DNA from: Halorubrum sp. CBA1229
GTDB taxonomy: Archaea; Halobacteriota; Halobacteria; Halobacteriales; Haloferacaceae
DNA length: 64,000 nucleotides
Assembly: GCF_003721435.2 (NCBI RefSeq)
Contig: NZ_CP054585.1
Coordinates: forward strand, 248,001-312,000
Direction of reading: 5' to 3'
The notes under the pieces are model-generated. The model made no database searches. It was given only the letters and a program-made list of their open reading frames with translations, and was not told the origin of the DNA. The number at the start of each line of letters is the position of its first letter. The first letter of the stretch is position 1. Shown here in pieces: positions 26,699 through 56,149 of the stretch. Both the position numbers and the translations under genes were made by a program.

Positions 26699-28708
26699 TC
26701 AATCGTACTCGTTCTCGATTACGGCCGCTTCAGCGTCCAACGCCCGCACCTCGATCCCGCGCCACTCCCCGTCAACCCCAACGAGCGCCTCCGCATACCC
26801 GAGTTCCTCATTTCCCGGCACCGCCTCCTGCACGAACCGCTTCTGGGCGTGATTTAACCCGAATTCGTCGGCCCAGTGGTCGTCCATCCCATCCAACCGA
26901 TGGAAGTACTTGATCGCACACTGGTCGAGGATCATCTCAGCTTCGGGCCGCTCAAAGAACTCATCGACGGTTTGGGTAACCAACTGCAGCGACAGATCGT
27001 GGTGGCGGTGATGCCGAAAGATGGTCTCTAAGAAGGCGAGATTCTCGGCATCACGCAACACGTACCGCGCTTCATCAATCACGAACACCACCTCCTTGTC
27101 CGTCTGTTTGGCTCGCTCGTATACCAACGAGATTAACAATTGCATCACCAGCGTCGTACGCCCGCCGACCCGCCCCTCCTGCTGGGCTAAATCCAAATAG
27201 AGCAGATCGGTATCCGCAAAATCGATCTCGCTCGACCGACCGAGATGTGCAAACTGCCCGTCCGGCGCAAACGGCCGCAACTGGTCGATAAGCCACGTGG
27301 CATCCGCCTGCAGCTTCTCCGCTTCGGCCTCGATCCGGAGCGTCTGCTGTTCTGGGGCCGCCACAAACGCTTCAAGCACATCAATTACATCCCGCAGCGT
27401 CGGACTCTCGCGATCGTGGGTCGTCAGATCCTCCGTAATGCCCGCCTCCCGGTACGCGGCATCAATCGCTAACTCCAGCGTCGTGCGCCGATCCCCAAGC
27501 GTGATCCCCCGCTGCGCGAAGAAGTTCGTCAGAAAGCTCACCACGCGCTCTTTCTTTTCGGTGAAGGGACTCGCATCGGCCCCCAGTTGTTCGCGCACCG
27601 GTTGTGGCATCGGCGTAATCTCGAGCGGATTGATTCCCCGGGTGCCACCCACGGTAATGCGCTGGGCACCTAATGCGTCTGCCACCCCCGCCCAATCGTT
27701 GAGCGGCTCTAAGATCACCCCAATTCGGTCCTCGTGATGCGCCACCGACCGAATAAACCGCTGTTTCGCGCCGAAGCTCTTCCCGGAGCCCGGATCCCCA
27801 ACAGTAAACGTCGCGTACCCGTTCTCACGCGCAAACGGGTCGATCACCACCGGCGTGTCCGTATGTCGATGCACCCCCACCTCGACGCCATCTGACTCCA
27901 ATAACGTGGGGCGATGCGGCGACGCCAACAGCGCGCCCACCGCGCCGCTGACACACGTCGTCCTGCGATCCAACACGGGCCCGCCGAGCGGTGCCGCCCC
28001 GCGCAACGCCCGGTCCTGCGCGCAGATTGCGGTCTTCGGCGCCAGCTCCGCCGGCTGCTCACGGAGCGTGCGCTTCACGCGGCGCACATCCCGATCAAGC
28101 GTCTCCCGGTCGTCGGCCCGGACGGTCACGAGCAGCGCCTGTGAGAACACCCGCGCCCCGGCTTCGACAGCCCGATACATCGCCGCTGCCTCACTCGCCC
28201 GATCCTGCAGATACGTGCTGCGGACGCTCGACTCGAGATCCGCATCCACTTTCAGATCGTCGGCGGTCGCCTGCAGCTGGTCGAGCGCCCGCTCCTGATC
28301 CTGCGGTCGGAAATGCGCCATCACGTGAAACCGGACGTCGGTGAGGGTGAACAGCTCACTCAGGTACCCATCGCTCGGATAATCCGGCCAATCCGCGATA
28401 TAGAGCGTGGTCGTCCACTCATCGCCGACCCGTGCGCACCGACTCTCCCACTCGACAGCTGCCGGCGCGACCGCAGCCTGTTGGCGCTCCCGGGGTGGGG
28501 CCACCTCCGTATCCCGCTGTGGCGCTCTCTCAGGCGGCTCAACGAACGCCGACAGATCCACCTCCGGATCACGATCGGGTTGGCGCGCCTGCATCCACAC
28601 CCCCAACAGGAGCCCCACAACGAGGATGCTACCCCCCGCCATCAGCCCGCCGACGAGCAGCGACGGCGAGAGCGACTCAACGCCACTGATTACGAGCGCC
28701 TCACGCAT
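26699..28708 (-). CDS. VirB4-like type IV secretion ATPase
   Basis: About 669 residues from the ATG at 28708, which overlaps the upstream gene's stop by 8 bases (ATGCGTGA); a GTG 30 bases earlier is possible. An N-terminal transmembrane helix (residues 10-35) is followed by a CagE/TrbE/VirB-like region. The ATPase has Walker A GDPGSGKSFG (near residue 314) and Walker B VVFVIDEARYVL (near residue 560). VirB4 powers pilus or channel assembly at the inner face of the membrane. It is the last gene of a six-gene, tightly overlapping minus-strand operon. Confidence 0.88.
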   Translation of the reverse strand: MREALVISGVESLSPSLLVGGLMAGGSILVVGLLLGVWMQARQPDRDPEVDLSAFVEPPERAPQRDTEVAPPRERQQAAVAPAAVEWESRCARVGDEWTTTLYIADWPDYPSDGYLSELFTLTDVRFHVMAHFRPQDQERALDQLQATADDLKVDADLESSVRSTYLQDRASEAAAMYRAVEAGARVFSQALLVTVRADDRETLDRDVRRVKRTLREQPAELAPKTAICAQDRALRGAAPLGGPVLDRRTTCVSGAVGALLASPHRPTLLESDGVEVGVHRHTDTPVVIDPFARENGYATFTVGDPGSGKSFGAKQRFIRSVAHHEDRIGVILEPLNDWAGVADALGAQRITVGGTRGINPLEITPMPQPVREQLGADASPFTEKKERVVSFLTNFFAQRGITLGDRRTTLELAIDAAYREAGITEDLTTHDRESPTLRDVIDVLEAFVAAPEQQTLRIEAEAEKLQADATWLIDQLRPFAPDGQFAHLGRSSEIDFADTDLLYLDLAQQEGRVGGRTTLVMQLLISLVYERAKQTDKEVVFVIDEARYVLRDAENLAFLETIFRHHRHHDLSLQLVTQTVDEFFERPEAEMILDQCAIKYFHRLDGMDDHWADEFGLNHAQKRFVQEAVPGNEELGYAEALVGVDGEWRGIEVRALDAEAAVIENEYD

Positions 28709-29795
28709 CAGATCCACCTCGCTCCGTGTGGTCCACACCCGCCCGGTCAGCGACGGGCGTCTCTGTGAGCTCAGTCCCGTTCCAAAACTGCGTGGCCAAC
28801 CCTAGAATCTCCGCTGTTGACAGTCGGCGCGCCGTACAATCACTCGTTTTGGCGACGAACTCTGTCTCAACCGTCCGCACCCGCTCGCGCAGCTTTGCGA
28901 GCTGGGCGCCCCGCAACTCCGCGTCGGTGAGCCGATCGCGACGCGTCACGAAGGGCGTCGCCAGCACGCCAACCACCGGCAGCGTGGTGAGTCGTTCAGC
29001 TGGCGTGCGCTCCTCGGGATGCCGCTCGTACACCTCGTACGGCGCCACGGACACCCCCAGAAAGTACCGCACCTGCTGGGTCTCTGCGAGCTCGGCCGGC
29101 CGCTGATCACGGTAGGCGGCGATCAACGCCCGCACCGACTCCCGCTCGCTCACGTCCGGGTCGGCGAGGCGATCATCCAACTGGTTGACCAGCGTCGCCG
29201 CCGGGTACGGATCGGTCGTGGTGTACAACGTGAGCTCGAAGGTCAGCTCCTGATTCGCGAACGCCTCACCCACGGCCTGCCGGGCGGCCCACTCGTCAGC
29301 CATCGCGAAATCCATGTTGCCCGGCGTCAGCTCAAGAAACGTCTCCATCCGCCCGTCCGTTCGTTCAACGGCGCCGTGGCCAGGCCACGCCCGCTTGAGC
29401 GCGGTCAACTCTTGGGTGTGCTCGTCGACGACAAACGGTTGTGGGACCGTCGTCTCACTGTCCGGGTCCGGTGTCGACGCGGCCCCCACCGCCTCATGGA
29501 GGGTCACCCGCGGCCGGCGCAGATAGAACCGCCCCAGATCGGCGAGCCACGTGCTCGCCGGGAGCTGTCTGGGAGCCGCATACACAACAGCCACCCCGAT
29601 CGCAAAGCCGACACACACCAGCGGGAACACGAGCGGCTCGACCCCCAGCGCCGCCCCCACCACGAGCCCCGCAATCGGAAAGCTGAGCAACACGTACAGA
29701 TCGCGTTCATACACGCCGACGATCGGGAGTCGCCGGTCGGCGTCAAGCGAGCGCATCACGCGACGGGTCGCGGGGGTGTCTGAATCCGTGCTCAT
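28701..29795 (-). CDS. PrgI/VirB3-like membrane protein with VirB4 N-domain features
   Basis: 364 residues. Two adjacent membrane helices (about residues 28-72) end in the segment LPASTWLADLGRFYLRRPRV, the layout of PrgI-family T4SS proteins. A soluble domain follows with TPGNMDFAMADEWAARQAV, resembling the N-terminal domain of VirB4-like ATPases. So part of a normal VirB4 may be encoded separately here. Start and stop overlap both neighbours (4 and 8 bases), showing translational coupling. Confidence 0.72.
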   Translation of the reverse strand: MSTDSDTPATRRVMRSLDADRRLPIVGVYERDLYVLLSFPIAGLVVGAALGVEPLVFPLVCVGFAIGVAVVYAAPRQLPASTWLADLGRFYLRRPRVTLHEAVGAASTPDPDSETTVPQPFVVDEHTQELTALKRAWPGHGAVERTDGRMETFLELTPGNMDFAMADEWAARQAVGEAFANQELTFELTLYTTTDPYPAATLVNQLDDRLADPDVSERESVRALIAAYRDQRPAELAETQQVRYFLGVSVAPYEVYERHPEERTPAERLTTLPVVGVLATPFVTRRDRLTDAELRGAQLAKLRERVRTVETEFVAKTSDCTARRLSTAEILGLATQFWNGTELTETPVADRAGVDHTERGGSDA

Positions 29796-35529: not shown

Positions 35530-36828
35530 GTGAGGCGAACCAACACGTTCGCAGTACGCCCGCTGTCAGATGATGATAAGCAGCTTCTGTTGGACCTGTT
35601 GGACGCCTCTGCGAGTCTGTGGAACGAGTTGAACTACGAGCGCCGCCAGCAATTTTTTGACGGCGAATCAGTGTGGGATACCGACGACTACCGGAAACAG
35701 TACGTCGATGTTCTCGGCTCTGCCACCGCACAGCAAATCATTCGGAAGAACAAGTCAGCGTGGCAGTCGTTTTTCGCCGTCCACCAGAACGGCGAGGATA
35801 CTGCCCCGCCGGGCTACTGGGGCAACGAGGATGATGGCCGCGAGCTACGCACGTACATCCGTAACGACCAATACACGCTGGAAACTGGCGAACGGTCACG
35901 AGTTGAGATACCAGTCGGCCACGCCCTGAAAGACGAGTATGGTTTGGGCTATCACGACCGCCTGCGCCTCGAAGTGTGTGGCGCTCCCAAATGGGACGGC
36001 GAACAGGGCCGCTTGGAGATACAGTACGATGAGACAGACGACACGTTCAGGGCTTTCCAGCCTGTCACTATACCCAATTCTCGACAGGATTCACTATTGG
36101 CTTCGGAAGAAGCCGCGCTGGACGTAGGCGCGAACAATCTCGTCGCCTGTACCACCACGACCGGCCAGCAGTACCTCTACGAAGGGCGCGACCTGTTCGA
36201 CCGCTTCCGCGAGACGACCGCGGAAATCGCCCGTCTCCAGTCCAAACTCCGCGAGGGGCGGAACAGCAGTCAGCGGATTCGGCGGCTGTATCGCACACGG
36301 ACGCGACGGCGCGACCATGCACAGGACGCGCTGGTTCGAGACCTGATGGAACGGCTCTACGCCGAAGGAGTCGCCACGGTGTATGTGGGCGACCTCACGG
36401 ACGTTCTTTCGACGCATTGGTGTGCCGATGTGAACGCAAAGACTCACCAATTCTGGGCGTTCCGGGCGTTCATCAAGCGGCTGTCGCACACCGCCGAGGA
36501 ATACGGTATCACCGTCGAGGTACGGTCAGAAGCCGACACAACCCGAACCTGCCCGGCGTGTGGCGAGCAGGACGATACCGACCGCGACGGCGACGTGTTC
36601 CGGTGTCCGTGCGGTCACGAAGGTCACGCCGATCTGTGCGCGTCTCGCACGTTCCTCGAACGACAGGCTGGCGAACCCGTTGGGTCGATGGCTCGGCCCG
36701 TGCGTCTCAAGTGGGACGACCACAACTGGTCGGAGATACCACACTCTCCCGAGAGGGCAAGTCCCAACGAGAAGCGCACAAACCAGAGTACCGGCGACGG
36801 GAAACTTGCCTCCGTGGGTGCGGAATAG
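35530..36828 (+). CDS. tnpB: TnpB (IS1341-type RNA-guided nuclease), RuvC-II Glu missing
   Basis: 432 residues from a GTG. RuvC-I is LDVGANN (Asp198). The zinc ribbon has C341, C344, C359 and C361. RuvC-III is [11 protein letters not shown] (Asp368), where the usual Asn two residues later is Cys. At the RuvC-II position, where the other two TnpBs in this window read AFEDLTDI and VLEDLTDI, this one reads YVGDLTDV: the catalytic Glu is Gly287. Either activity is lost or another acid (for example Asp288 or Glu334) substitutes. Family TnpBs cut DNA guided by an RNA from the element's right end. Confidence 0.88.
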
Positions 36829-43267: not shown

Positions 43268-43420
43268 AGTGTGTTTTGTGTTCACATGTGTCAGTAAGAA
43301 AGTTACGGCGCACACAACCTGAATCAAAGCTGTGTGGTGGCCAGTGTGCGGGGTGATGGCGGTTCCAGGCTGGCTTCCACAAGTCTGTGCGGACGGGGGT
43401 CCGGGTGTGTGCGTCTGCCA

Positions 43421-43452
43421 GTTTGTGGCGCTCCCGAGGGGTGGGAGCGCAC
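43421..43452 (+). promoter_or_regulatory. Structured 5' leader before the ArdC-like gene
   Basis: GTTTGTGGCGCTCCC-GAGGGGT-GGGAGCGCAC directly precedes the ATG. The arms GTGGCGCTCCC and GGGAGCGCAC pair almost perfectly, and the loop carries GGGGTGG, a possible Shine-Dalgarno-like run. Related leaders precede the genes at 50354 and 52059, and a longer variant precedes those at 54518 and 55577. Confidence 0.65.
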
Positions 43453-44394
43453 ATGGCCGAATCCCACTCTCCGAGCGGGCGCGTCACGTTTGGTGACGCT
43501 GACGCCCGCGCCGACCAGATGGATCAGGCGATTGATCAGTGGCTCAGCGAGCTCGTCGACGCCGTCGACGAGGCGCGTGCCAGCGAGCAGTTCCAGCGGT
43601 GGCTCGACGTCCAGAGCCGATTCCATGACTACTCGCACCGAAACACGCTGCTCATCACCTTGCAGTGCCCTGAGGCGACGAAGGTAGCGGGGTACCGGAC
43701 GTGGCAAGACGAGTTCGATCGGCAGGTGCAGGACGGCGAATCGGCGATCTGGATCTGGGCACCGCTCATCTCACCGCAGTGTCCCGACTGTGGAAACAGT
43801 CCCTCGTACCACGACGACAGCGACTGCGCGTACGATGAGACGCCACCCGACGAGTGGCGTGAGGGCGTGGTCGGGTTCAAACCGGTTCCCGTCTTCGACA
43901 TCTCGCAAACGGAGGGCGAGCCGCTGCCCGAACTGGAGACGGACGCGACGGGTGAGGCTGATGAGCTGTTAGCTGGACTGCTCGCGGCGGCCGACGAGCT
44001 CGGTGTGACCGTCGACGTGGTGCGTACTAATGCGTGGTCGCACGGCGACGCCGACGGCGTCTGTCGCCACGTCGACGACACGCCCCACATTCAGGTGCAG
44101 GAGGCAGATCCTGCAGCCGTCGCGGGCACACTCCTCCATGAGTACGCCCACGCGCTGTTGCATGACCCAGCGGATACCGCCGATCGCGAGGCGCGCGAAC
44201 TGGAAGCGGAAGCAGTCGCGTACGTCGTCGGCCACCATTTCGGGGTGGAGATGGATGGATCGGCGCTGTATCTTGCCGCGTGGAGCGAAGACGACGCAGA
44301 TCGGCTTCTCAGGCGGTGTGAGCGGATTCGAACGACAAGTACGACATTGATCGACGGGATCGCTGCACAGCGCGACCCGATTGATCATGAGTAG
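43453..44394 (+). CDS. ArdC-like antirestriction protein with metallopeptidase domain
   Basis: 313 residues from the ATG after the leader hairpin. The N-terminal domain (residues 25-100: FQRWLDVQSRFHDYSHRNTL, then GYRTWQDEF) matches the ssDNA-binding ArdC-N domain. A zinc-ribbon insertion follows (CPDCGNSPSYHDDSDC). The C-terminal domain has the HExxH site HEYAH (229-233) with a downstream EAEAVAYVVGHHFG helix. ArdC proteins of conjugative plasmids protect incoming single strands from restriction. It is divergent from the coupling ATPase, in keeping with a role on entry. Confidence 0.85.
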   Translation: MAESHSPSGRVTFGDADARADQMDQAIDQWLSELVDAVDEARASEQFQRWLDVQSRFHDYSHRNTLLITLQCPEATKVAGYRTWQDEFDRQVQDGESAIWIWAPLISPQCPDCGNSPSYHDDSDCAYDETPPDEWREGVVGFKPVPVFDISQTEGEPLPELETDATGEADELLAGLLAAADELGVTVDVVRTNAWSHGDADGVCRHVDDTPHIQVQEADPAAVAGTLLHEYAHALLHDPADTADREARELEAEAVAYVVGHHFGVEMDGSALYLAAWSEDDADRLLRRCERIRTTSTTLIDGIAAQRDPIDHE

Positions 44395-44451
44395 ACGGTG
44401 TTTGGGGAGTTCAGGCCCGCCTTTTTATTGTCGGCACACCTACGATCTCGC

Positions 44452-44739
44452 ATGGCAGTGACGACGTACCGGATCGTCTCCGCAGACGAGTCGAGCATCC
44501 ACGACGAGCCCCATCTCGAAAGGAGTCGGGTGACGGTTCGACAGCTCCACGCTGTCGTTGAGAAGGCGGGTCAGCGTCCCGATCGGGTCGCAGATCGCCA
44601 TGGACTCGACGTTGGTGAGGTGTACGAAGCGCTTGCGTACTACCATCGGAACCCCGAAGAGATGCAGCGAGTTGAGGCCCGTCACACCCGCGCCGCTACA
44701 GAAGCAGCACGACAGTCTTCCGTGACGCCTGAGGAATGA
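44452..44739 (+). CDS. DUF433-family antitoxin
   Basis: 95 residues from the ATG at 44452. The C-terminal half has the DUF433 pattern RPDRVADRHGLDVGEVYEAL followed by AYYHRNPEEM, a small HTH. The last four bases overlap the next start (ATGA). DUF433 proteins are the antitoxins of DUF5615 nuclease-like toxins in many archaea and cyanobacteria. The preceding gene is ArdC, 57 bases away. Confidence 0.85.
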   Translation: MAVTTYRIVSADESSIHDEPHLERSRVTVRQLHAVVEKAGQRPDRVADRHGLDVGEVYEALAYYHRNPEEMQRVEARHTRAATEAARQSSVTPEE

Positions 44740-45077
44740 GCTATCGACTCCTTCTCGATGAGAACATTGAATATCGGATTGTCCACAAACTTCGAAATTA
44801 TGGACATGATGCCGAACATGTTTCTGATCTGAGCACCTTTGGAAAAGGTTCAACCGACAAAGAACTCGGCCAGTATTCGAACTCAGACGACCGGCTGATC
44901 CTCACTTACGACGACGATTTTGTTCTGGAATTAGATAGCTCAGCATATCGAGCAGTGCTGTACGTAAACGACGTGACGATACCATCCAGAAAGATTGCTG
45001 ATGCGGTTCATCGGATGTCGAAACAGTATCCTCACGATGAAGTCACTGGTGTAGTCTATGTTGATGAGTGGATCTGA
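44736..45077 (+). CDS. DUF5615-family PIN-like toxin
   Basis: 113 residues. The PIN-like core is clear: YRLLLDENIEYRIVHKLRNY with Asp7 and Glu8, then GHDAEHVSDL and DRLILTYDDDFVLEL (acidic trio). These proteins are predicted RNases neutralised by their DUF433 partner encoded just upstream with a 4-base overlap. It is intact and of normal length, so the pair is probably active. Confidence 0.85.
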   Translation: MSYRLLLDENIEYRIVHKLRNYGHDAEHVSDLSTFGKGSTDKELGQYSNSDDRLILTYDDDFVLELDSSAYRAVLYVNDVTIPSRKIADAVHRMSKQYPHDEVTGVVYVDEWI

Positions 45078-45371: not shown

Positions 45372-46628
45372 GTGGCGGACGACTACGTGCGTCGGACGGC
45401 AATTACTCGTCTCGAAGTCACAGACGAGCAACGCGACCTGCTCGAAGAGACTATCTCTGAGTGGAAGCGTGGATGCCAACTCGCCACGGACATGGCGTGG
45501 GGCAAATGCAACGCGAAAAGCGACGTACAGCCCCTCGCTTACGACGACGTGCGAGAACATACCGACCTCGGGAGTCAACACGCGGTTCTCGCCACCCACC
45601 AAGCAGCCCAAGCCATCACCGGCTGTCTCGAACGCCGCTCGAAAGGGAAGAACGTCAGCAAGCCCACCTTCACCGCTCCGACGGTGACGTACGACACGCG
45701 GACGCTGACGCTGTTCGATGACGAGACGGTGTCGCTCTCCACCACGGAGAGTCGGGTCCGATGTGAACTTGCTCTGCCTGATGCCGACGATGGCTATCAA
45801 CGGCAGTATCTTGACTCGGACACATGGAGCGTCACGGAAAGTACACTCACCGCCCGTAACGGTGACTACTTTTTACATCTCGGCTTCCGCCGACCAAAGA
45901 CCGATATGGAGCGGAACACCGCCGAGGACGGAACGGTCCTCGGGGTTGACCTCGGTATCGAAAACCTTGCTGTCACCAGCACTGCCTCCTTTGTCAGCGG
46001 GCGAGAGCTTACTCACAACCTCCGAGAGTTCGAGAAGGTGCGCGCCGGACTCCAACAGACCGGGACGCGAAGCGCCCACCGAACGCTCGAACAGTCGAGT
46101 AGGCGAGAACTTCGCTACATCCGCGACGTGCTACACAAAGCGTCGAACGCCATAGTCGCGGAAGCGCTCCGGTACGAGTGCGACGTGATCGCGTTCGAGG
46201 ACTTAACTGACATCCGCGACCGCACGGGAGCGTCGTGGGGGCACAAGTGGGCGTTCCGAACGCTCTATGAACAAGTGGAATACAAAGCCGAAGCTGAAGG
46301 TATCACGGTGAAGCAAGTGGGGTCGGCGTACACGTCGCAACGATGCGCCGAGTGTGGATTCACAGCAGACGAGAACCGTCCGGCCCGCACCGAGTTCTCT
46401 TGTCAGAAGTGTGAGTCGGAAGCGAATGCGGATTACAATGCGGCGAAGAATATCGGGATGCGGTATGTCCGTCGAGGCCAACAGTCGTCTCGGCGGACGG
46501 GCAACAGTCAGCTCGCCCTGAAGTCTGGAACGGTGACGCCGAGTGGCGGATTCACCGCCCACCCGGACGGGTTCGAGGCCGAGCTCACGGACAAGCCCCT
46601 CCCTCAACGAGCGAAGTCGGTAGACTGA
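45372..46628 (+). CDS. tnpB: TnpB RNA-guided nuclease, complete active site
   Basis: 418 residues from a GTG. RuvC-I GVDLGIENL (Asp193), RuvC-II AFEDLTDI (Glu276), zinc ribbon C325/C328 and C344/C347, and RuvC-III NADYNAAKN (Asp354) are all present, so it should be catalytically competent. The N-terminal beta barrel and helices (TRLEVTDEQRDLLEETISEW) are typical. It is only distantly similar to the other two TnpBs here. The 3' end of the gene runs into the right-end hairpin. Confidence 0.92.
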   Translation: MADDYVRRTAITRLEVTDEQRDLLEETISEWKRGCQLATDMAWGKCNAKSDVQPLAYDDVREHTDLGSQHAVLATHQAAQAITGCLERRSKGKNVSKPTFTAPTVTYDTRTLTLFDDETVSLSTTESRVRCELALPDADDGYQRQYLDSDTWSVTESTLTARNGDYFLHLGFRRPKTDMERNTAEDGTVLGVDLGIENLAVTSTASFVSGRELTHNLREFEKVRAGLQQTGTRSAHRTLEQSSRRELRYIRDVLHKASNAIVAEALRYECDVIAFEDLTDIRDRTGASWGHKWAFRTLYEQVEYKAEAEGITVKQVGSAYTSQRCAECGFTADENRPARTEFSCQKCESEANADYNAAKNIGMRYVRRGQQSSRRTGNSQLALKSGTVTPSGGFTAHPDGFEAELTDKPLPQRAKSVD

Positions 46629-46939: not shown

Positions 46940-47456
46940 TCACTCACACAGTGCCAACCGCACCGCGTCCGACAGCCCACTCACGCGGGCAGCATGCTCC
47001 CAGGATTCTTCGCGAATGCCGTTGGTGACGTACGCAAAGCCGACATTTCGCTCTGGATCACCCCACCCGAAAATGCTCCCCAGTCCTGCATGGCCGAACA
47101 TCCGCTCGCGACTCATCGAGCCAAACATATCGTTCGCGAGCCCACCGGTCCAAAAGCCAAGGCCGTATCGGGCCGGTCGCGAGAGCGTTCCGTCCGACTC
47201 GGTCTCTGCATGGGTCTGGGTTGTGTGGGCGACGGTCTCTGCGTCAAGCAGTCGTGTCCCGTTGAAGGCGCCACCGTTCGCCATACAGGCGTAAAATCGT
47301 GCCATCTCACGTGCCGTGCTAATCCCGTTTGCGGCCGGGATCACCGCGCGGCGGACGGCTTCGTCGTTGAACGCCGCTGCTGACTCGGCGGCTGGGATTC
47401 CGAGGCCTTCACCGGGATCGCGACACCGGTCGTACATTTCGAAGCCGGATAGAGTG
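46940..47456 (-). pseudogene. 5'-truncated beta-lactamase-family (serine hydrolase) gene
   Basis: About 170 C-terminal residues remain: ANGISTAREMARFYACMANG, then YGLGFWTGGLANDMFG, MFGHAGLGSIFGWGDPERNV and AYVTNG. The HAGxGS motif corresponds to the third catalytic motif of class C beta-lactamase/esterase-like proteins. The S-x-x-K-containing N-terminal half is missing; the gene ends abruptly at the right end of the third TnpB element. No N-terminal half was found on the other side of that element. Confidence 0.8.
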
Positions 47457-47536: not shown

Positions 47537-48793
47537 TCAAGACGCATGCGTTCCACGCCTCCTTTGCTGGGTGTCAGCATCGGCGTGGCTGTCTTGTGGC
47601 CCGGTCAACGAGGCCCCATCCGTAGTCGAGTCATCGGCACCAGCCTTCTGCCGGGAGTTCCGATCGCTTTGGCGGTGACTCTCTCCACTACGGTAGCGGT
47701 CTGCAATATTTATCGCCCCGTTCACGTCGGCTTGATACTCACCGACCCAACAGTCGTCGGTCGAGCAGCGAAACATCGCCTGTCGTGGCCGGGAGCCGTG
47801 TTCACCGCACGCGTGACACGCCTTCGACGTGTTTCGAGGATTCACCGTCTCGACGGGAATCCCCTGCTCGGCGGCTTTGTAGCGAATCTGTGCGTGGAGT
47901 TTGGCAAACCCCCACCCGTGTAACCGCCGGTTCATGTATTCGCCGTAGTCCATGTTCTCGCGGATGTCCGTCAAGTCTTCCAGCACCAGTACTGGGTTCT
48001 CGACGGACTCAGCGTACTCAACGACCTCGCGGGTCACGCGGTGAAACACATCGTCAATCTGGTTCCATACTGTATCACCGTAGGATGCTGCGATGCGCTC
48101 ACTGCCTCGTTTCTGCAGCCGCTGCTTGGCAGTGAAGTAGGTTTTGCGGAGCCGACGAACGGCCTTGCCGTCGTCAGCCCACAGTTCGGGGCGAACAGGA
48201 GAACCACGCTTGTCGCGGTGACACACCGTGACAAGACTCGCTTCTCCAATATCCACACCAATCGGCGTCCGCTCGTCGGCGGACACTGCGGAGTGTTTTT
48301 CTACCTCTCGAGTGGCGGTGACGTGAAGATACCACGTTCCGTCCCGCTCGAACAGCCGACTCTCACCCATCGTCGCATCGTCTGCGTGCAACGCTTCGAG
48401 CCACTCCCGCTGGTCGGGATTGGCGCGTACCGGAATCCAGAGGCTGTAATCCTCGTGGTGCGGGATTTTGACGTACCACTCGATGGCGTTCTGTGGCTTG
48501 TGATCGAGGCGGATACCTTCGTTGGTGAACTTCACCGAGTGGTCCTCGGAGATCTCGTCGGCGTCGTAGCTGGTGTGGAGTTGCGGGACGAACTGTTTGA
48601 GCGCGTTTTTCGCATAGCCGCTTAAATCGTACTCGACGACAACGTCGTTGGCAGCTGACTGGGTCGGACAGTGTGCGTCGAACGCGGCCTGAAGTGCCTG
48701 CTGATAGGCCACTCGCGTCTCTCGAAGTTTCCGCCGCTTATTGGTGGTTGGATCGACAAGCTGGAGTTCCAGCGTTTTTGTCACAGCAGGCAT
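47537..48793 (-). CDS. tnpB: TnpB RNA-guided nuclease, complete active site
   Basis: 418 residues from the ATG at 48793; earlier in-frame codons lie in the element's leader. RuvC-I is GVDIGEASL (Asp181), RuvC-II VLEDLTDI (Glu272), zinc ribbon C326/C329 with C343/C348, and RuvC-III QADVNGAINI (Asp356). This belongs to a different TnpB branch from the other two (N-terminus TKTLELQLVDPTTNKRRKL). It should be an active nuclease. The C-terminal 45 residues are polar and disordered. Confidence 0.92.
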   Translation of the reverse strand: MPAVTKTLELQLVDPTTNKRRKLRETRVAYQQALQAAFDAHCPTQSAANDVVVEYDLSGYAKNALKQFVPQLHTSYDADEISEDHSVKFTNEGIRLDHKPQNAIEWYVKIPHHEDYSLWIPVRANPDQREWLEALHADDATMGESRLFERDGTWYLHVTATREVEKHSAVSADERTPIGVDIGEASLVTVCHRDKRGSPVRPELWADDGKAVRRLRKTYFTAKQRLQKRGSERIAASYGDTVWNQIDDVFHRVTREVVEYAESVENPVLVLEDLTDIRENMDYGEYMNRRLHGWGFAKLHAQIRYKAAEQGIPVETVNPRNTSKACHACGEHGSRPRQAMFRCSTDDCWVGEYQADVNGAINIADRYRSGESHRQSDRNSRQKAGADDSTTDGASLTGPQDSHADADTQQRRRGTHAS

Positions 48794-49002
48794 CAGACTG
48801 TACCGGATATAATAACTGATGGCACAATAAGGGTCAGCCATCCGGAGTGAAAGTACTCCTCCAACTATCGGAAATCCGCTCTCGCCATCGCCCGTGGCTT
48901 TTCAGGAGCTCGTCCACTTGACCTCCGCCTGAAGACGGAGGTATGCGCTCGTAACCCTATCATCTGAATATTGGGAGTGCGACGACTGCTATTGTTCTTC
49001 AA

Positions 49003-50353: not shown

Positions 50354-52024
50354 ATGTCCAAGCAGTCATCGTCCCCGGATCAGTCCGGGATCGAGACGCG
50401 GCGTACCGAGACGGTCGAAATGACCACGGCCGATCAGGTCGCACAGTATCTAATCGAAGATCAGATGGCGGATCTCACGGATGCAATTCGTGAGGCCGTC
50501 CAGAATGGGGTTGACAGTCCCGGCTCCACACGCGTCTTGGTGAGCGTCACGCCCGAACAGACCGTCGTCTGTGATGACGGGGCGGGCGTTGATTTGGGGA
50601 GTGACGAGGGAACGCGGGATCTCTCCGTGCTTGGCGCCGGGACGAAAGCCCGGGCGGACGACACCACGCTCGGCGAGTGGGGGATTGGGACGGGTGCGAT
50701 CATCGCGAAGGGCGCGGTGCGCATCTGGAGCGGCGGGCACGCGCTGTGTTTCGACTATCAGGATCAGCGGACGACTGGGCCGTTCGCAGACGTGGCTGGC
50801 CGTGAGGGGGTCGTCATCGAGACCGAGCACGCGTTCGACGGCGTCTGCGTGAGCATCGACCATTACGCGGGTGAGGTGCCCGATCCCGAGAGCTACCGGT
50901 GGCGCCGGATCGTCGAGCGGCTCCGCGAGCGGTTCGCGTATCTCACCTTTCGGACGGATGTTGCGGTGGTCGTCAACGGCGCGCCCGTGGATCGCGGGCA
51001 TCCGTTCGAAGCGGTCGCCGACAGCCGGGCGCACGTAACGCGTGAGACCGAGGACGCGTATCTAGCCCTTGAGCAGGCGCCCGAGGACGGACTGGCTGTG
51101 TACAGCAACGGCCTGTTCGTCACCACGGATCACGACGTCGGCGTGGGGGGCGTCGTTGTCTCAAAGGGGAATCTGACGCTCAATTTTGGCCGGACGGCGA
51201 TTCAATCGGGATGTGACCGCTGGGGCCGAATTCAGGAGACGATCGCTGCCGCCCGTCGCGACCTATACGACCAGGTGAACGATGACCAGCTCGACAGCCA
51301 GACACGCGCCAAGATGGCCGAACTCCTGGTCAGCGACGAGACGCTGCGGGAGCGCTGGCGGGATCGTGATCTCTTCCAGTTGGTGACAGCGACGCCAGTG
51401 AGTCTCGCACGAATTCAGGCGGCGCCACAGATCGCGTGTCAAGAGGGCGCCAGTCACGGCGGCGATGCGCTCGTCGAGCGCGGGGCCATCATCCTCGATA
51501 CGACCGATCCAGCCACCAAGCGACTGGCGGCGGCAGCACGCGATAGTGAGACCGACGTCGCGCTGCCATCGCGGTTCGACGTCGCAGCGCGGGCGGAAGA
51601 AGCCGGCGTCTGGCAGGGGTATCGTCGGCTGGCAGACACCGACCTCTCGACGCGGCAGGCGCGGTACCTCTTGTTCGCGCGAGCGCTCGCTGAGGCGATC
51701 GAAATCGACCGCACAATTTACTGGGGCGAAGCGACGGCCGACGCATGGACGGATGGGCGGACGCGGATCGTGTTGACGGATTCGGCAGTGACGAGCTCGA
51801 AACGCGCGGTGTGGACTCACGACCTCTTCCTCACCCTGTGTCACGAGGCGGCCCATGATCGGTCGGACAAGCGCCGCCCCGCGCATGGACGGCGCTTCGA
51901 GAGTCGGTTTCGTGACCTCGTTGAGGATCCGGAGGTGCGGGCGGCGTACGCCGAGTTGGTGACCGCCGTTCACGAGCGGGGGTTCCAGCCGGTGTTCAAC
52001 GAACGGGGAGTGACGCTCAGCTAG
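50354..52024 (+). CDS. GHKL ATPase fused to a SprT/WLM-like metalloprotease
   Basis: 556 residues. The ATPase domain has an N box REAVQNGVD (Glu47, Asn51), a G1 box DDGAGVD (74-80) and a G2 box GEWGIGTGA (107-115), as in Hsp90/MORC/MutL-type GHKL folds. A middle transducer-like domain (residues 180-330) follows, then helical regions. The C-terminus has HEAAHD (497-502) and, nine residues on, HGRRF with His511, the spacing of SprT/WLM-type zinc proteases. Role unknown: ATP-dependent DNA-protein or protein remodelling with proteolysis is a reasonable guess. It carries one of the shared leader hairpins. Confidence 0.8.
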   Translation: MSKQSSSPDQSGIETRRTETVEMTTADQVAQYLIEDQMADLTDAIREAVQNGVDSPGSTRVLVSVTPEQTVVCDDGAGVDLGSDEGTRDLSVLGAGTKARADDTTLGEWGIGTGAIIAKGAVRIWSGGHALCFDYQDQRTTGPFADVAGREGVVIETEHAFDGVCVSIDHYAGEVPDPESYRWRRIVERLRERFAYLTFRTDVAVVVNGAPVDRGHPFEAVADSRAHVTRETEDAYLALEQAPEDGLAVYSNGLFVTTDHDVGVGGVVVSKGNLTLNFGRTAIQSGCDRWGRIQETIAAARRDLYDQVNDDQLDSQTRAKMAELLVSDETLRERWRDRDLFQLVTATPVSLARIQAAPQIACQEGASHGGDALVERGAIILDTTDPATKRLAAAARDSETDVALPSRFDVAARAEEAGVWQGYRRLADTDLSTRQARYLLFARALAEAIEIDRTIYWGEATADAWTDGRTRIVLTDSAVTSSKRAVWTHDLFLTLCHEAAHDRSDKRRPAHGRRFESRFRDLVEDPEVRAAYAELVTAVHERGFQPVFNERGVTLS

Positions 52025-53191: not shown

Positions 53192-53243
53192 CTCACAATA
53201 GACACACGCCAAGAACTACCAATATTGGCTCACAATATACACA
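53192..53243. promoter_or_regulatory. Operator region of the RHH/Doc module
   Basis: Two 15-base direct repeats CTCACAATAKACACA (53192-53206 and 53229-53243, one mismatch) flank the palindrome CCAATATTGG (53219-53228), and the second repeat ends two bases before the ATG at 53246. Such paired sites are typical of autoregulated TA operons. Confidence 0.6.
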
Positions 53244-53245
53244 TA

Positions 53246-53548
53246 ATGGGTAGCGACAAGAAGCGCGTCCAGTTTCGGGCGCCCCACCGTCTGATTGATC
53301 GCACCGACGCGCTCGCGGCTGTTCTTGGCGAGGATCGGACGGATATCCTGGTGACCGCGCTCCGCGAGTATCTCCAAGAGACCACCCATGATGACGCACT
53401 CACCCAAGAAATCGCGGCCGTCTACTACAACGAGGAGCTCTCGTTTGCGCAACTCAAAGCGCTCGTTGGCGCCGAAGAGGCGGCCAACCTCCGCGTATTG
53501 AAACAGCAGCTGGATGAGGACTTCATCGACGAGGTCGCAGACGCATAG
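53246..53548 (+). CDS. RHH-type antitoxin of the Doc module
   Basis: 100 residues from the ATG at 53246. The N-terminus KKRVQFRAPHRLIDRTDALA followed by LGEDRTDILVTALREYLQET is a ribbon-helix-helix domain. The C-terminal half (IAAVYYNEELSFAQLKALVG, then EEAANLRVLKQQLDEDF) is a HTH-like unit resembling UPF0175 and the gene at 57774. A Doc toxin gene follows 83 bases later. Confidence 0.78.
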   Translation: MGSDKKRVQFRAPHRLIDRTDALAAVLGEDRTDILVTALREYLQETTHDDALTQEIAAVYYNEELSFAQLKALVGAEEAANLRVLKQQLDEDFIDEVADA

Positions 53549-53631
53549 CTGGCCGACCCACATGGTCGGCGACGAGGCCTGGTATCAACAGTTGAGAAAC
53601 GGTTAATGGGTGGCGTGAGAAAGTCAAGTAC

Positions 53632-54030
53632 GTGACTGACGGGTTCGTGTATCCCTCTGTCGAACTTATTCTGGATCTCCACGACCAGATCGTGGCAGAA
53701 GGCGACACCACGGAACCAGGAGTTCGGTCAGAACCTGCAATTGCCTCCGCGATTCAGTATAGCTCCGAGGGGTTCTTCGGGGAGGTGCCCGAGACGATCC
53801 ATGACAAAGCGATCCATCTGATGCGACTGCTCGTTGCGGATCATCCATTTGTCGACGGAAACAAGCGAACAGCGCTCCGGACGGTGGCCGTTTTCCATAT
53901 GCTGAACGGATACACGTTCGACTACGGTGATGAAATTCGGGCTCTCTTGCACCGCTTCGCAACCGACGAAGCCGCGGTCGATACAGACACTGCAGTCATC
54001 TACTTCCGGGCCTGTGCTCGCCACAACTGA
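53632..54030 (+). CDS. doc: Doc (Fic-fold) toxin, death-on-curing family
   Basis: 132 residues from a GTG. The Fic motif HPFVDGNKRTAL (about residues 72-83) is complete, and the N-terminal FVYPSVELILDLHDQIVAEG with PGVRSEPAIASAIQYSSEGF is the Doc form. Doc proteins phosphorylate EF-Tu in bacteria; Fic relatives AMPylate targets. The target in archaea is unknown. The upstream RHH gene is the expected antitoxin, though RHH instead of Phd is unusual for Doc. Confidence 0.88.
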   Translation: MTDGFVYPSVELILDLHDQIVAEGDTTEPGVRSEPAIASAIQYSSEGFFGEVPETIHDKAIHLMRLLVADHPFVDGNKRTALRTVAVFHMLNGYTFDYGDEIRALLHRFATDEAAVDTDTAVIYFRACARHN

Positions 54031-54784: not shown

Positions 54785-55144
54785 ATGTCAAGCGATGCCA
54801 TCGATATCGAGACGTTTGAGAACGCCGACGACGATGCGTTTGCAGCACAGAACGACACAGAGCGGATCGTGGTGTTTCTTGACGAACACGATGATCGGGC
54901 GTGGAAGGCAGCGACGATTGCCGAGCGACTTGAGTTGGAGACTGATACCGTGAGCGCGATTTTGTCCCGGCTGAAAGAGCGCGGGCTTGTCCGGCACAAG
55001 CGTCCTTACTGGGCGATCACAACTGACACGGATCGACTTCGAGCCGCCTACCAACTGCACCAGCGGCATGCGGCCGCAGACGACCAGTACGGCGATGAGG
55101 AACTCGAAGAACTGCGGACGGACGAGATGGAGAAGGTGCAGTGA
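54785..55144 (+). CDS. MarR-like winged-helix antitoxin for a MazF-type toxin
   Basis: 119 residues. The winged helix is in residues 25-85: TERIVVFLDEHDDRAWKAAT, then IAERLELETDTVSAILSRLK. The C-terminal tail is charged and helical (ELEELRTDEMEKVQ). Its last four bases overlap the next start (GTGA). The upstream 70 bases hold repeats of AACARTACCA (near 54733 and 54765), a possible operator. Confidence 0.78.
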   Translation: MSSDAIDIETFENADDDAFAAQNDTERIVVFLDEHDDRAWKAATIAERLELETDTVSAILSRLKERGLVRHKRPYWAITTDTDRLRAAYQLHQRHAAADDQYGDEELEELRTDEMEKVQ

Positions 55145-55482
55145 CCGAGTTTGCTGAACTCGAGCGTGGCGACATCGTCTGGGGAACAGATCCACTCTCC
55201 AAGAAGGGGCGCCCGCTGCTCATCTTAGGGGCACCGAACCTGCCTGCACACGGCGTACAGCTTATCACCGTTCTCATTTCGACAAAAACATATCATGAGG
55301 ATTCACTCATGCTGCGCGATGAGGACTACGACGGTGAGCCACTCGGAAAACGGAGCCATGTCCTGCCGTGGTCAATTGTCACGCTCAACAATACGCCAGA
55401 AGTCGAGTACTATATGACAGCAATCAGCAATAAGCGCGTCGAAGACGTCGCTGAACGATCGATCAGTTATATTGCTGGGTGA
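55141..55482 (+). CDS. PemK/MazF-like toxin
   Basis: 113 residues from the GTG in the GTGA overlap. The fold signature is LERGDIVWGTDPLSKKGRPL followed by LILG, then VQLITVLISTK and KRSHVLPWSIVTLN. MazF-type enzymes cut mRNA at short motifs. A winged-helix partner instead of a MazE-type protein is the notable point. Coupled translation supports a TA pair. Confidence 0.8.
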   Translation: MTEFAELERGDIVWGTDPLSKKGRPLLILGAPNLPAHGVQLITVLISTKTYHEDSLMLRDEDYDGEPLGKRSHVLPWSIVTLNNTPEVEYYMTAISNKRVEDVAERSISYIAG

Positions 55483-55523: not shown

Positions 55524-55576
55524 GGTTTATGCCTCGCCGCGATGGGCGCCGGCGAGCCACTCGCCGGCGTGATTTG
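55524..55576 (+). promoter_or_regulatory. Structured leader, second copy
   Basis: GGTTTATGCCTCGCC-GCGATGGGCGCC-GGCGAG and CTCGCCGGCG directly before the ATG at 55577. It is nearly identical to 54472-54517 except for the first bases and a CC/TT change before the ATG. Confidence 0.6.
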
Positions 55577-56149
55577 ATGTCGACACGGTGTCAACTCCGG
55601 TTCGTTCGGACCCTCGAGGCGGGCCGGACGACCGATCCGACCGACCCAGTCGCACAGGTATACACGCACGCTGACGGGTATCCAGCGGGTGTGCTTGAAC
55701 GTCTCCACCAGCTCAAACAGCTGTTGGAGGCGACGACCAGTGTGCGCGGGCCAGCGTATACGGCCGCACAGTACGTGTTCCTCGAGAAGCTCACCGCGAT
55801 TCCGTTGTATCTGGATCCGTCACGCGAGGCTGAGCGGCGTGTTGACGCGAGCTCACCCGCGGATGTCTGTGATCCGACTCGGATGCAGCATCTTGCCCAG
55901 CCGCTGTTTCTGCTCGGCCACGGGATCGAAGATCCGCGGGCAGGCATTCACGGTGACGAGGAGTATCTGTACATCGTCGAAGTCCCACCCTACGAGGTGG
56001 CGCACGTTGAGCCGCCGGCGTGGCAGGTGGCCGTGAGCGAGCCGTGTGGATTCCCGCGGTGGGACGCTCAGACCGATGGGGCCTTCAGCGACGCAACATG
56101 GCAGTTTGAGGGGTCGCTTGCCGAAGCGATCGACCGATTCGGTGATTAA
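55577..56149 (+). CDS. Conserved haloarchaeal plasmid-type protein, unknown function
   Basis: 190 residues from the ATG after the leader; the in-frame sequence upstream is the hairpin. The N-terminus STRCQLRFVRDLEAGRTTDP-like motif, then QVYTHADGYPAGVLERLHQL, resembles proteins I associate with haloarchaeal plasmids. The middle is helical (AAQYVFLEKLTAIPLYLD) and the C-terminus beta-rich with DEEYLYIVEVPPYEVAHVEP. No catalytic motif is recognised. A truncated copy lies 1 kb upstream, on the other side of the MazF-type module. Confidence 0.7.
   Translation: MSTRCQLRFVRTLEAGRTTDPTDPVAQVYTHADGYPAGVLERLHQLKQLLEATTSVRGPAYTAAQYVFLEKLTAIPLYLDPSREAERRVDASSPADVCDPTRMQHLAQPLFLLGHGIEDPRAGIHGDEEYLYIVEVPPYEVAHVEPPAWQVAVSEPCGFPRWDAQTDGAFSDATWQFEGSLAEAIDRFGD

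Follow-up and report, generated by a model that had tools for sequence, protein, structure and literature searches.

What could a mobile element gain from a protein that joins a complete GHKL ATP-binding site to a predicted zinc protease site in a single chain? This question is raised by an open reading frame in the window, i.e. the 64,000-nucleotide stretch of Halorubrum sp. CBA1229 analyzed here (NZ_CP054585.1, positions 248,001 to 312,000), to which all unlabeled coordinates refer.

An Hsp90-like ATPase with a predicted C-terminal zincin domain

The original prediction had placed both sites in one 556-residue protein next to conjugation genes, and all motifs are indeed present (Table 1): the GHKL motifs E47..N51 (N box), D74-D-G76-x-G78 (G1) and G107..G110-I-G112 (G2) and, in the C-terminal part, the zinc motif H497-E498-A-A-H501, x9, H511-G-R-R-F515. 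As only 1 of 200,000 shuffled versions of the protein contained the pattern HExxH-x(5-14)-H[GDS]xxF, the zinc motif is not a chance occurrence. The ATG start is backed by Halorubrum homologues starting at the same residue. The intact gene is present once in its own genome, which also contains a second, truncated copy (C1:1046760-1047500) with residues 308-555 only, i.e. the zincin half, at 82% identity. This truncated copy adjoins a relative of the window gene 55529-56149. No known family covers the window protein over its full length (Pfam, NCBIfam, PHROGs, PADLOC), and databases annotate the family only as "ATP-binding protein".

Table 1. Features of the putative ATPase-zincin gene and further genes in the window.
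Feature	Position	Strand	Basis
CDS of the putative Hsp90-like ATPase-zincin	50354..52024	+	556 aa plus stop, ATG start
N domain, residues 25-179, predicted GHKL/Bergerat ATP-binding	50426..50890	+	HATPase_c_3; hhalign to HtpG N domain, E 2.1e-9
Middle region, residues 180-424, predicted Hsp90-type S5-fold transducer and next segment	50891..51625	+	hhalign, collinear with HtpG; Foldseek
Putative Hsp90-type catalytic loop, K271..N273-L-T-L-N277-F-G-R280	51164..51193	+	K271 and R280 invariant (24/24)
Predicted zincin domain, residues 425-556	51626..52021	+	AlphaFold2 model; Foldseek
Zinc site, H497-E-x-x-H501 ... H511-G-x-x-F515	51842..51898	+	H, E, H, H, F invariant (24/24)
ArdC-like: ArdC N-terminal ssDNA-binding domain and M78/IrrE-like peptidase	43387..44394, likely start 43450	+	Pfam
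VirD4/TrwB-like coupling ATPase, 1193 aa	39746..43327	-	TrwB_AAD_bind 7.8e-6; divergent from the ArdC-like gene
VirB4/TraG-like conjugation ATPase	26699..28738	-	P-loop_TraG 5.4e-6, marginally under cut-off

Profile comparisons and predicted folds indicate that the ATPase half is more specific than GHKL, resembling the N and middle domains of Hsp90 with the catalytic arginine loop, and that the zincin most likely stands where Hsp90 would have its C-terminal dimerization domain. The Pfam model HATPase_c_3 matches in 13 of 20 haloarchaeal homologues (best 9.3e-9) and its cut-off is passed by most bacterial members scanned, while the NCBIfam model "HSP90 family protein" reaches 5.4e-9 in one homologue (L107), which is under its whole-protein cut-off. 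When a profile of 24 sequences was aligned with E. coli HtpG by hhalign, window residues 18-395 fell collinearly on HtpG 4-484 (probability 97.2, E 3.6e-11), which sets LTLNFGRTAIQ (R280) on LPLNVSREILQ (R336) of HtpG. The N domain alone also matched its HtpG counterpart (Table 1), and residues 180-400 alone did so with E 2.9e-4 in unchanged register; 20 shuffled HtpG sequences used as control gave E 0.097 or worse, and the zincin domain alone (residues 425-556) did not align with HtpG. The AlphaFold2 model of the whole protein has a pLDDT of 78.6 and a pTM of 0.63, and the prediction is poor near the ATP lid (residues 91-99 and 108-116). In a Foldseek search with this model all 50 of the 50 matches listed were Hsp90-family chains (Hsp90/TRAP1, best 1.5e-15), and the TM-scores of mostly about 0.4-0.5 are expected, because the domains shift mutually and the C-terminal part differs. 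Sequence and predicted fold thus agree with the earlier description of the ATPase as clamp-like.

The C-terminal part had been described as a SprT/WLM-like protease. For residues 425-556, AlphaFold2 gave a confident zincin model with a His-His-His site (pLDDT 91.6, pTM 0.87), and the fold matches of this model are weak: with nothing passing 0.001, the top Foldseek matches were the minigluzincins abylysin, selecase and jannalysin (E 0.035-0.08, query TM 0.36-0.41), followed by PprI/IrrE and, further down, by archaemetzincin and ArdC. Likewise, phmmer/hmmsearch searches of the PDB with the window protein gave nothing significant, with Spartan and abylysin only at E about 0.6, and TIGR04338 (Rv0185 metallohydrolase) was weakly matched. 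The minigluzincin group also takes in Spartan and Wss1, and the third zinc ligand of Spartan and the WLM proteases is a histidine; this SprT-like trait, HExxH with a third His in HxxxF, is present here. There was no significant Pfam match to SprT or WLM: SprT-like (PF10263) reached 17.3 bits at best in one viral homologue (cut-off 25.6) and did not match the window protein. The cysteines of the SprT zinc ribbon are absent, and residues 425-556 contain a single Cys (C496). As the domain stays under the Pfam cut-off and lacks the zinc ribbon, we do not name it SprT; it appears to be a zincin of minigluzincin-like type with a SprT-style third His and not a member of SprT or WLM. The zincin part of the earlier assignment is retained and the family name is dropped.

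Conservation and distribution of the family

In an alignment of 24 archaeal, bacterial and viral sequences reaching down to about 20% identity, E47, N51, D74, G76, G78, G112, K271 and R280 are invariant, and the same holds for W465, T466, H497, E498, H501, H511 and F515. Both sites also keep their catalytic residues without exception in 20 full-length haloarchaeal homologues, which are 31-87% identical. All further full-length bacterial members read contain HExxH and HxxxF, with YTDG replacing WTDG in one of them (L113). Homologues without the zinc site would have spoken against the original prediction, and the only one found is a degenerate Deinococcus remnant of 426 aa (L114), in which the GHKL half is gone as well. 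Haloarchaeal GHKL proteins of 516-539 aa (L087-L089) and a further protein (L090) have no HExxH and were not counted as family members. Comparison of the Halorubrum copies gives an overall dN/dS of 0.13-0.15, with 0.09-0.16 for the ATPase domain and 0.10-0.21 for the zincin, and the gene is under purifying selection.

The closest homologues are found in Halorubrum genomes, and in the tree the archaeal and bacterial members form two separate groups (100/100) with several long branches. In haloarchaea the gene is rare (20 of 392 genomes), and split or frame-broken copies occur in several of them. Bacterial homologues surfaced with a divergent haloarchaeal query from the viral branch (113 plasmid records), and an Aeromonas member as query yielded 190 plasmid records, 140 of them with at least 80% coverage. 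The hosts are Acinetobacter, Pseudomonas, Xanthomonas, Burkholderia, Variovorax, Photobacterium, Aeromonas, Bosea and others, with Acinetobacter (89 plasmid records) and Pseudomonas (50) counted by genus. The family is mostly located on mobile elements, namely plasmids of haloarchaea, haloviruses with a terminase and about 140 bacterial plasmids. The conjugative plasmids that carry it are of clinical and environmental importance.

Genomic neighborhood in haloarchaea

The conjugation genes of the window are represented by the VirD4/TrwB-like and VirB4/TraG-like ATPases, and an ArdC-like gene is located between the former and the ATPase-zincin gene (Table 1). In the window copy of the ArdC-like protein ArdcN and Peptidase_M78 are slightly under the Pfam cut-offs, and in a homologue (L061) ArdcN is above it. 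The neighborhood is conserved across haloarchaeal elements: an ArdC-like gene lies within 12 kb in at least 23 of 27 archaeal copies, always upstream and on the same strand, although these carriers are related and do not represent independent events. When flanks were clustered separately, an ArdC-like neighbor appeared at 28 of 40 loci. As ArdC-like genes are widespread in the order (219 of 392 genomes) and the ATPase-zincin gene is rare, the linkage and not the co-occurrence is informative; it may, however, reflect a shared element backbone alone. Winged-helix regulators are frequent neighbors as well.

Several genes resembling toxin-antitoxin pairs surround the ATPase-zincin gene in the window, i.e. 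a pair of DUF433 and a partner (44398-45077), a pair of a small protein and Fic/Doc (53225-54030) and a PemK-like protein (55141-55482), the last judged by eye only. Three close TnpB-like RNA-guided nuclease/transposon genes were recognized by eye (35530-36828, 45372-46628 and 47537-48841), the latter two of which cluster together by sequence, and a fragment at 46940-47437, probably a remnant, resembles part of a serine beta-lactamase-type hydrolase.

Bacterial plasmids and viruses

On bacterial plasmids the neighbors include ssb, topB, cytosine methyltransferase, ParAB, umuDC, ArdR and zeta toxin genes, and the gene also adjoins T4SS, mobH-traD or topoisomerase genes. The virB11-virD4 interval harbors it in P. 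syringae pCC1557, with topoisomerase and ssb next in line, an arrangement common to about 20 plasmids. In pPSR1 and others the same two small ORFs flank this position and the ATPase-zincin gene is absent, and some plasmids have a GH25 gene in this interval, alone or beside the ATPase-zincin gene. The position between virB11 and virD4 could suggest a core T4SS part, but in view of these plasmids it is no proof of one; the gene is rather an accessory insertion in a conjugation locus. The interval as such (NZ_CP007015.1, NC_005205.1) is an accessory-gene hotspot in the T4SS operon of P. syringae plasmids. Since natural plasmids with and without the gene at one T4SS locus exist, its contribution to plasmid spread can be put to the test.

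A viral scan with the single window protein as query gave no match, and viral members were found with the alignment as query. A terminase is present in two gene-bearing IMG/VR haloviral contigs and in a gene-bearing Halobaculum "plasmid", and no VirD4/TrwB-like coupling-protein homologue was found in these three, whereas such homologues are present in the Halorubrum and Natrialbaceae carriers. The latter replicon, Halobaculum halophilum "plasmid unnamed3" (NZ_CP058532.1), has long runs of small co-directed genes besides its terminase and is probably a phage-plasmid or a tailed provirus. In a phage collection only two contigs matched, both of "Acinetobacter phage MD-2021a" (CAKLQH020000019.1); their gene block is the same as in the A. 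baumannii plasmid pMC75.1, and we therefore regard them as plasmid fragments and not as phage. A large viral-classed contig of 350 kb (IMGVR_UViG_3300024259_002152) encodes a member of the bacterial branch, and the Pfam terminase family searched for was not found in it.

Possible function and alternative explanations

In the reading that we propose, and to which we give an even chance, the protein is an ATP-gated clamp-protease that promotes the establishment of incoming DNA, probably through cleavage of a host protein or of a protein bound to DNA. The Hsp90-like clamp (N and middle domains) would have a small zinc metalloprotease in place of the C-terminal dimerization domain. ATP bound at N51/D74 and hydrolyzed with the aid of R280 would shut the clamp around a client, or around a protein bound to DNA, which would then be passed to the HExxH/H511 zinc site and cleaved. 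Mobile elements may use such a clamp-protease against host proteins that hinder entering DNA, be it restriction, other defense or tightly DNA-bound proteins, and it would act during establishment, in haloarchaea beside the ArdC-like antirestriction gene. Proteolytic activity, ATP gating, the client class and action in the recipient cell are what we infer here. The ArdC-like neighbor, ssb, topoisomerase and DNA methyltransferases fit an establishment or anti-defense role, and the optional presence in otherwise similar T4SS loci is as expected for an accessory function. Several points speak against this reading: an Hsp90 clamp requires dimerization, yet the usual dimerization domain is missing; the predicted zincin fold has weak matches (E 0.035); the link to ArdC-like genes may stem from a shared element backbone; and ArdC itself does not depend on its protease activity for antirestriction (PMC7213743).

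More tentatively, and at clearly less than an even chance, this could be a widespread ATP-dependent protease family, driven by an Hsp90-type ATPase and not by an AAA+ unfoldase, which would serve archaeal and bacterial conjugative plasmids and viruses to destroy blocking host or DNA-bound proteins. To our knowledge the known ATP-dependent proteases use AAA+ motors, and an Hsp90-type clamp with a protease in one chain would be a different design.

The original prediction proposed that a relaxase or a restriction enzyme is removed from transferred DNA, which is possible. Taken as removal of DNA-protein crosslinks, the protease would cleave a covalent relaxase or a topoisomerase-like adduct on transferred DNA, with the clamp as loader, by analogy to Wss1 with Cdc48 or to Spartan. 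The proximity to T4SS, mobH-traD or topoisomerase genes and the broad fold group shared with Wss1 and Spartan are in line with this, but terminase-bearing haloviruses without a detected coupling-protein homologue carry the gene too, and the Pseudomonas conjugation locus also exists without it, so that relaxase turnover there does not depend on it. Haloviral carriers and T4SS loci with and without the gene thus argue against a dedicated relaxase-removal role, and we consider crosslink removal unlikely. The occurrence on conjugative plasmids and terminase-bearing, tailed viruses rather favors a need common to both kinds of incoming DNA, as assumed for the proposed clamp-protease.

Slightly less probable still is an element-borne defense, in which a GHKL sensor and a protease effector would act against competing plasmids or phages or kill the infected cell, like VcSduA. 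GHKL-effector fusions are known in defense (PMC12137116), the N domain weakly resembles the defense-associated models TmtA and MzaB, toxin-antitoxin genes are nearby in the window and the distribution is patchy. However, a full-length PADLOC match is absent, viruses carry the gene, and the conserved order is with ArdC-like and conjugation genes and not with defense islands.

It is very unlikely that the protein is a regulatory protease of the ImmA/IrrE kind that would turn on transfer or lytic genes by cleaving a repressor, with the ATP state as signal: PprI/IrrE structures are among the Foldseek matches of the zincin and winged-helix regulators are often adjacent, but no single conserved repressor stands alongside the gene across archaea and bacteria, and an Hsp90-sized ATPase module is unusual for such a role. 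A non-proteolytic chaperone or DNA clamp with a purely structural zinc site is equally improbable, because Glu498, which structural zinc does not need, is invariant (24/24) and the zincin and the ATPase have similarly low dN/dS, even though the antirestriction activity of ArdC does not require its protease site (PMC7213743) and a plasmid zincin thus need not be catalytic for a known phenotype.

Comparison with known systems

The original prediction knew of no described protein with a GHKL and zinc-protease pair, and in the open-access literature we likewise found none that combines a GHKL or Hsp90-like ATPase with a zincin, a prior description elsewhere being possible. Both halves are of known kinds; what appears to be new is the fusion, its spread over two domains of life and its location on mobile elements. 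With Hsp90/HtpG/TRAP1 the protein shares the N-terminal GHKL domain and the middle domain with its catalytic-Arg loop, collinear over residues 18-395, whereas the identity is about 15% and a predicted zincin replaces the dimerization domain. SprT-like/Spartan, WLM/Wss1 and minigluzincin proteases are small zincins, as predicted for the C-terminal domain here, with HExxH and the third His in HxxxF in Spartan/WLM style, but here H501 and H511 are spaced by 9 and the SprT zinc ribbon is missing. Wss1 works with a separate partner, Cdc48, whereas here the ATPase is in the same chain as the putative protease.

ArdC of R388 is plasmid-borne too and combines a zincin with a second module, and an ArdC-like gene is the commonest haloarchaeal neighbor. 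In ArdC, however, the N domain binds ssDNA and a Glu serves as metal ligand (PMC7213743), where the present protein has the Hsp90-like ATPase and the third His, and Pfam finds ArdcN in the ArdC-like neighbor and not in the ATPase-zincin. In polyvalent proteins of phages and conjugative elements the zincin is the commonest domain, GHKL being unmentioned in that paper (PMC5512222). The Shedu protein VcSduA also has an N-terminal GHKL and a middle clamp domain, proposed as controller of a C-terminal effector (PMC12137116); there the effector is a PD-(D/E)xK nuclease in a host defense system, and neither the Shedu DUF4263 nor another nuclease matched here in Pfam, NCBIfam or PADLOC. PHROG RIIA gave weak matches over about 34-41 N-domain residues and no full-length match. 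T4 rIIA-like phage proteins likewise carry an N-terminal GHKL and a C-terminal domain on mobile DNA, but their C-terminal domains are variable (PMC7824862), whereas the zincin is constant in the family described here.
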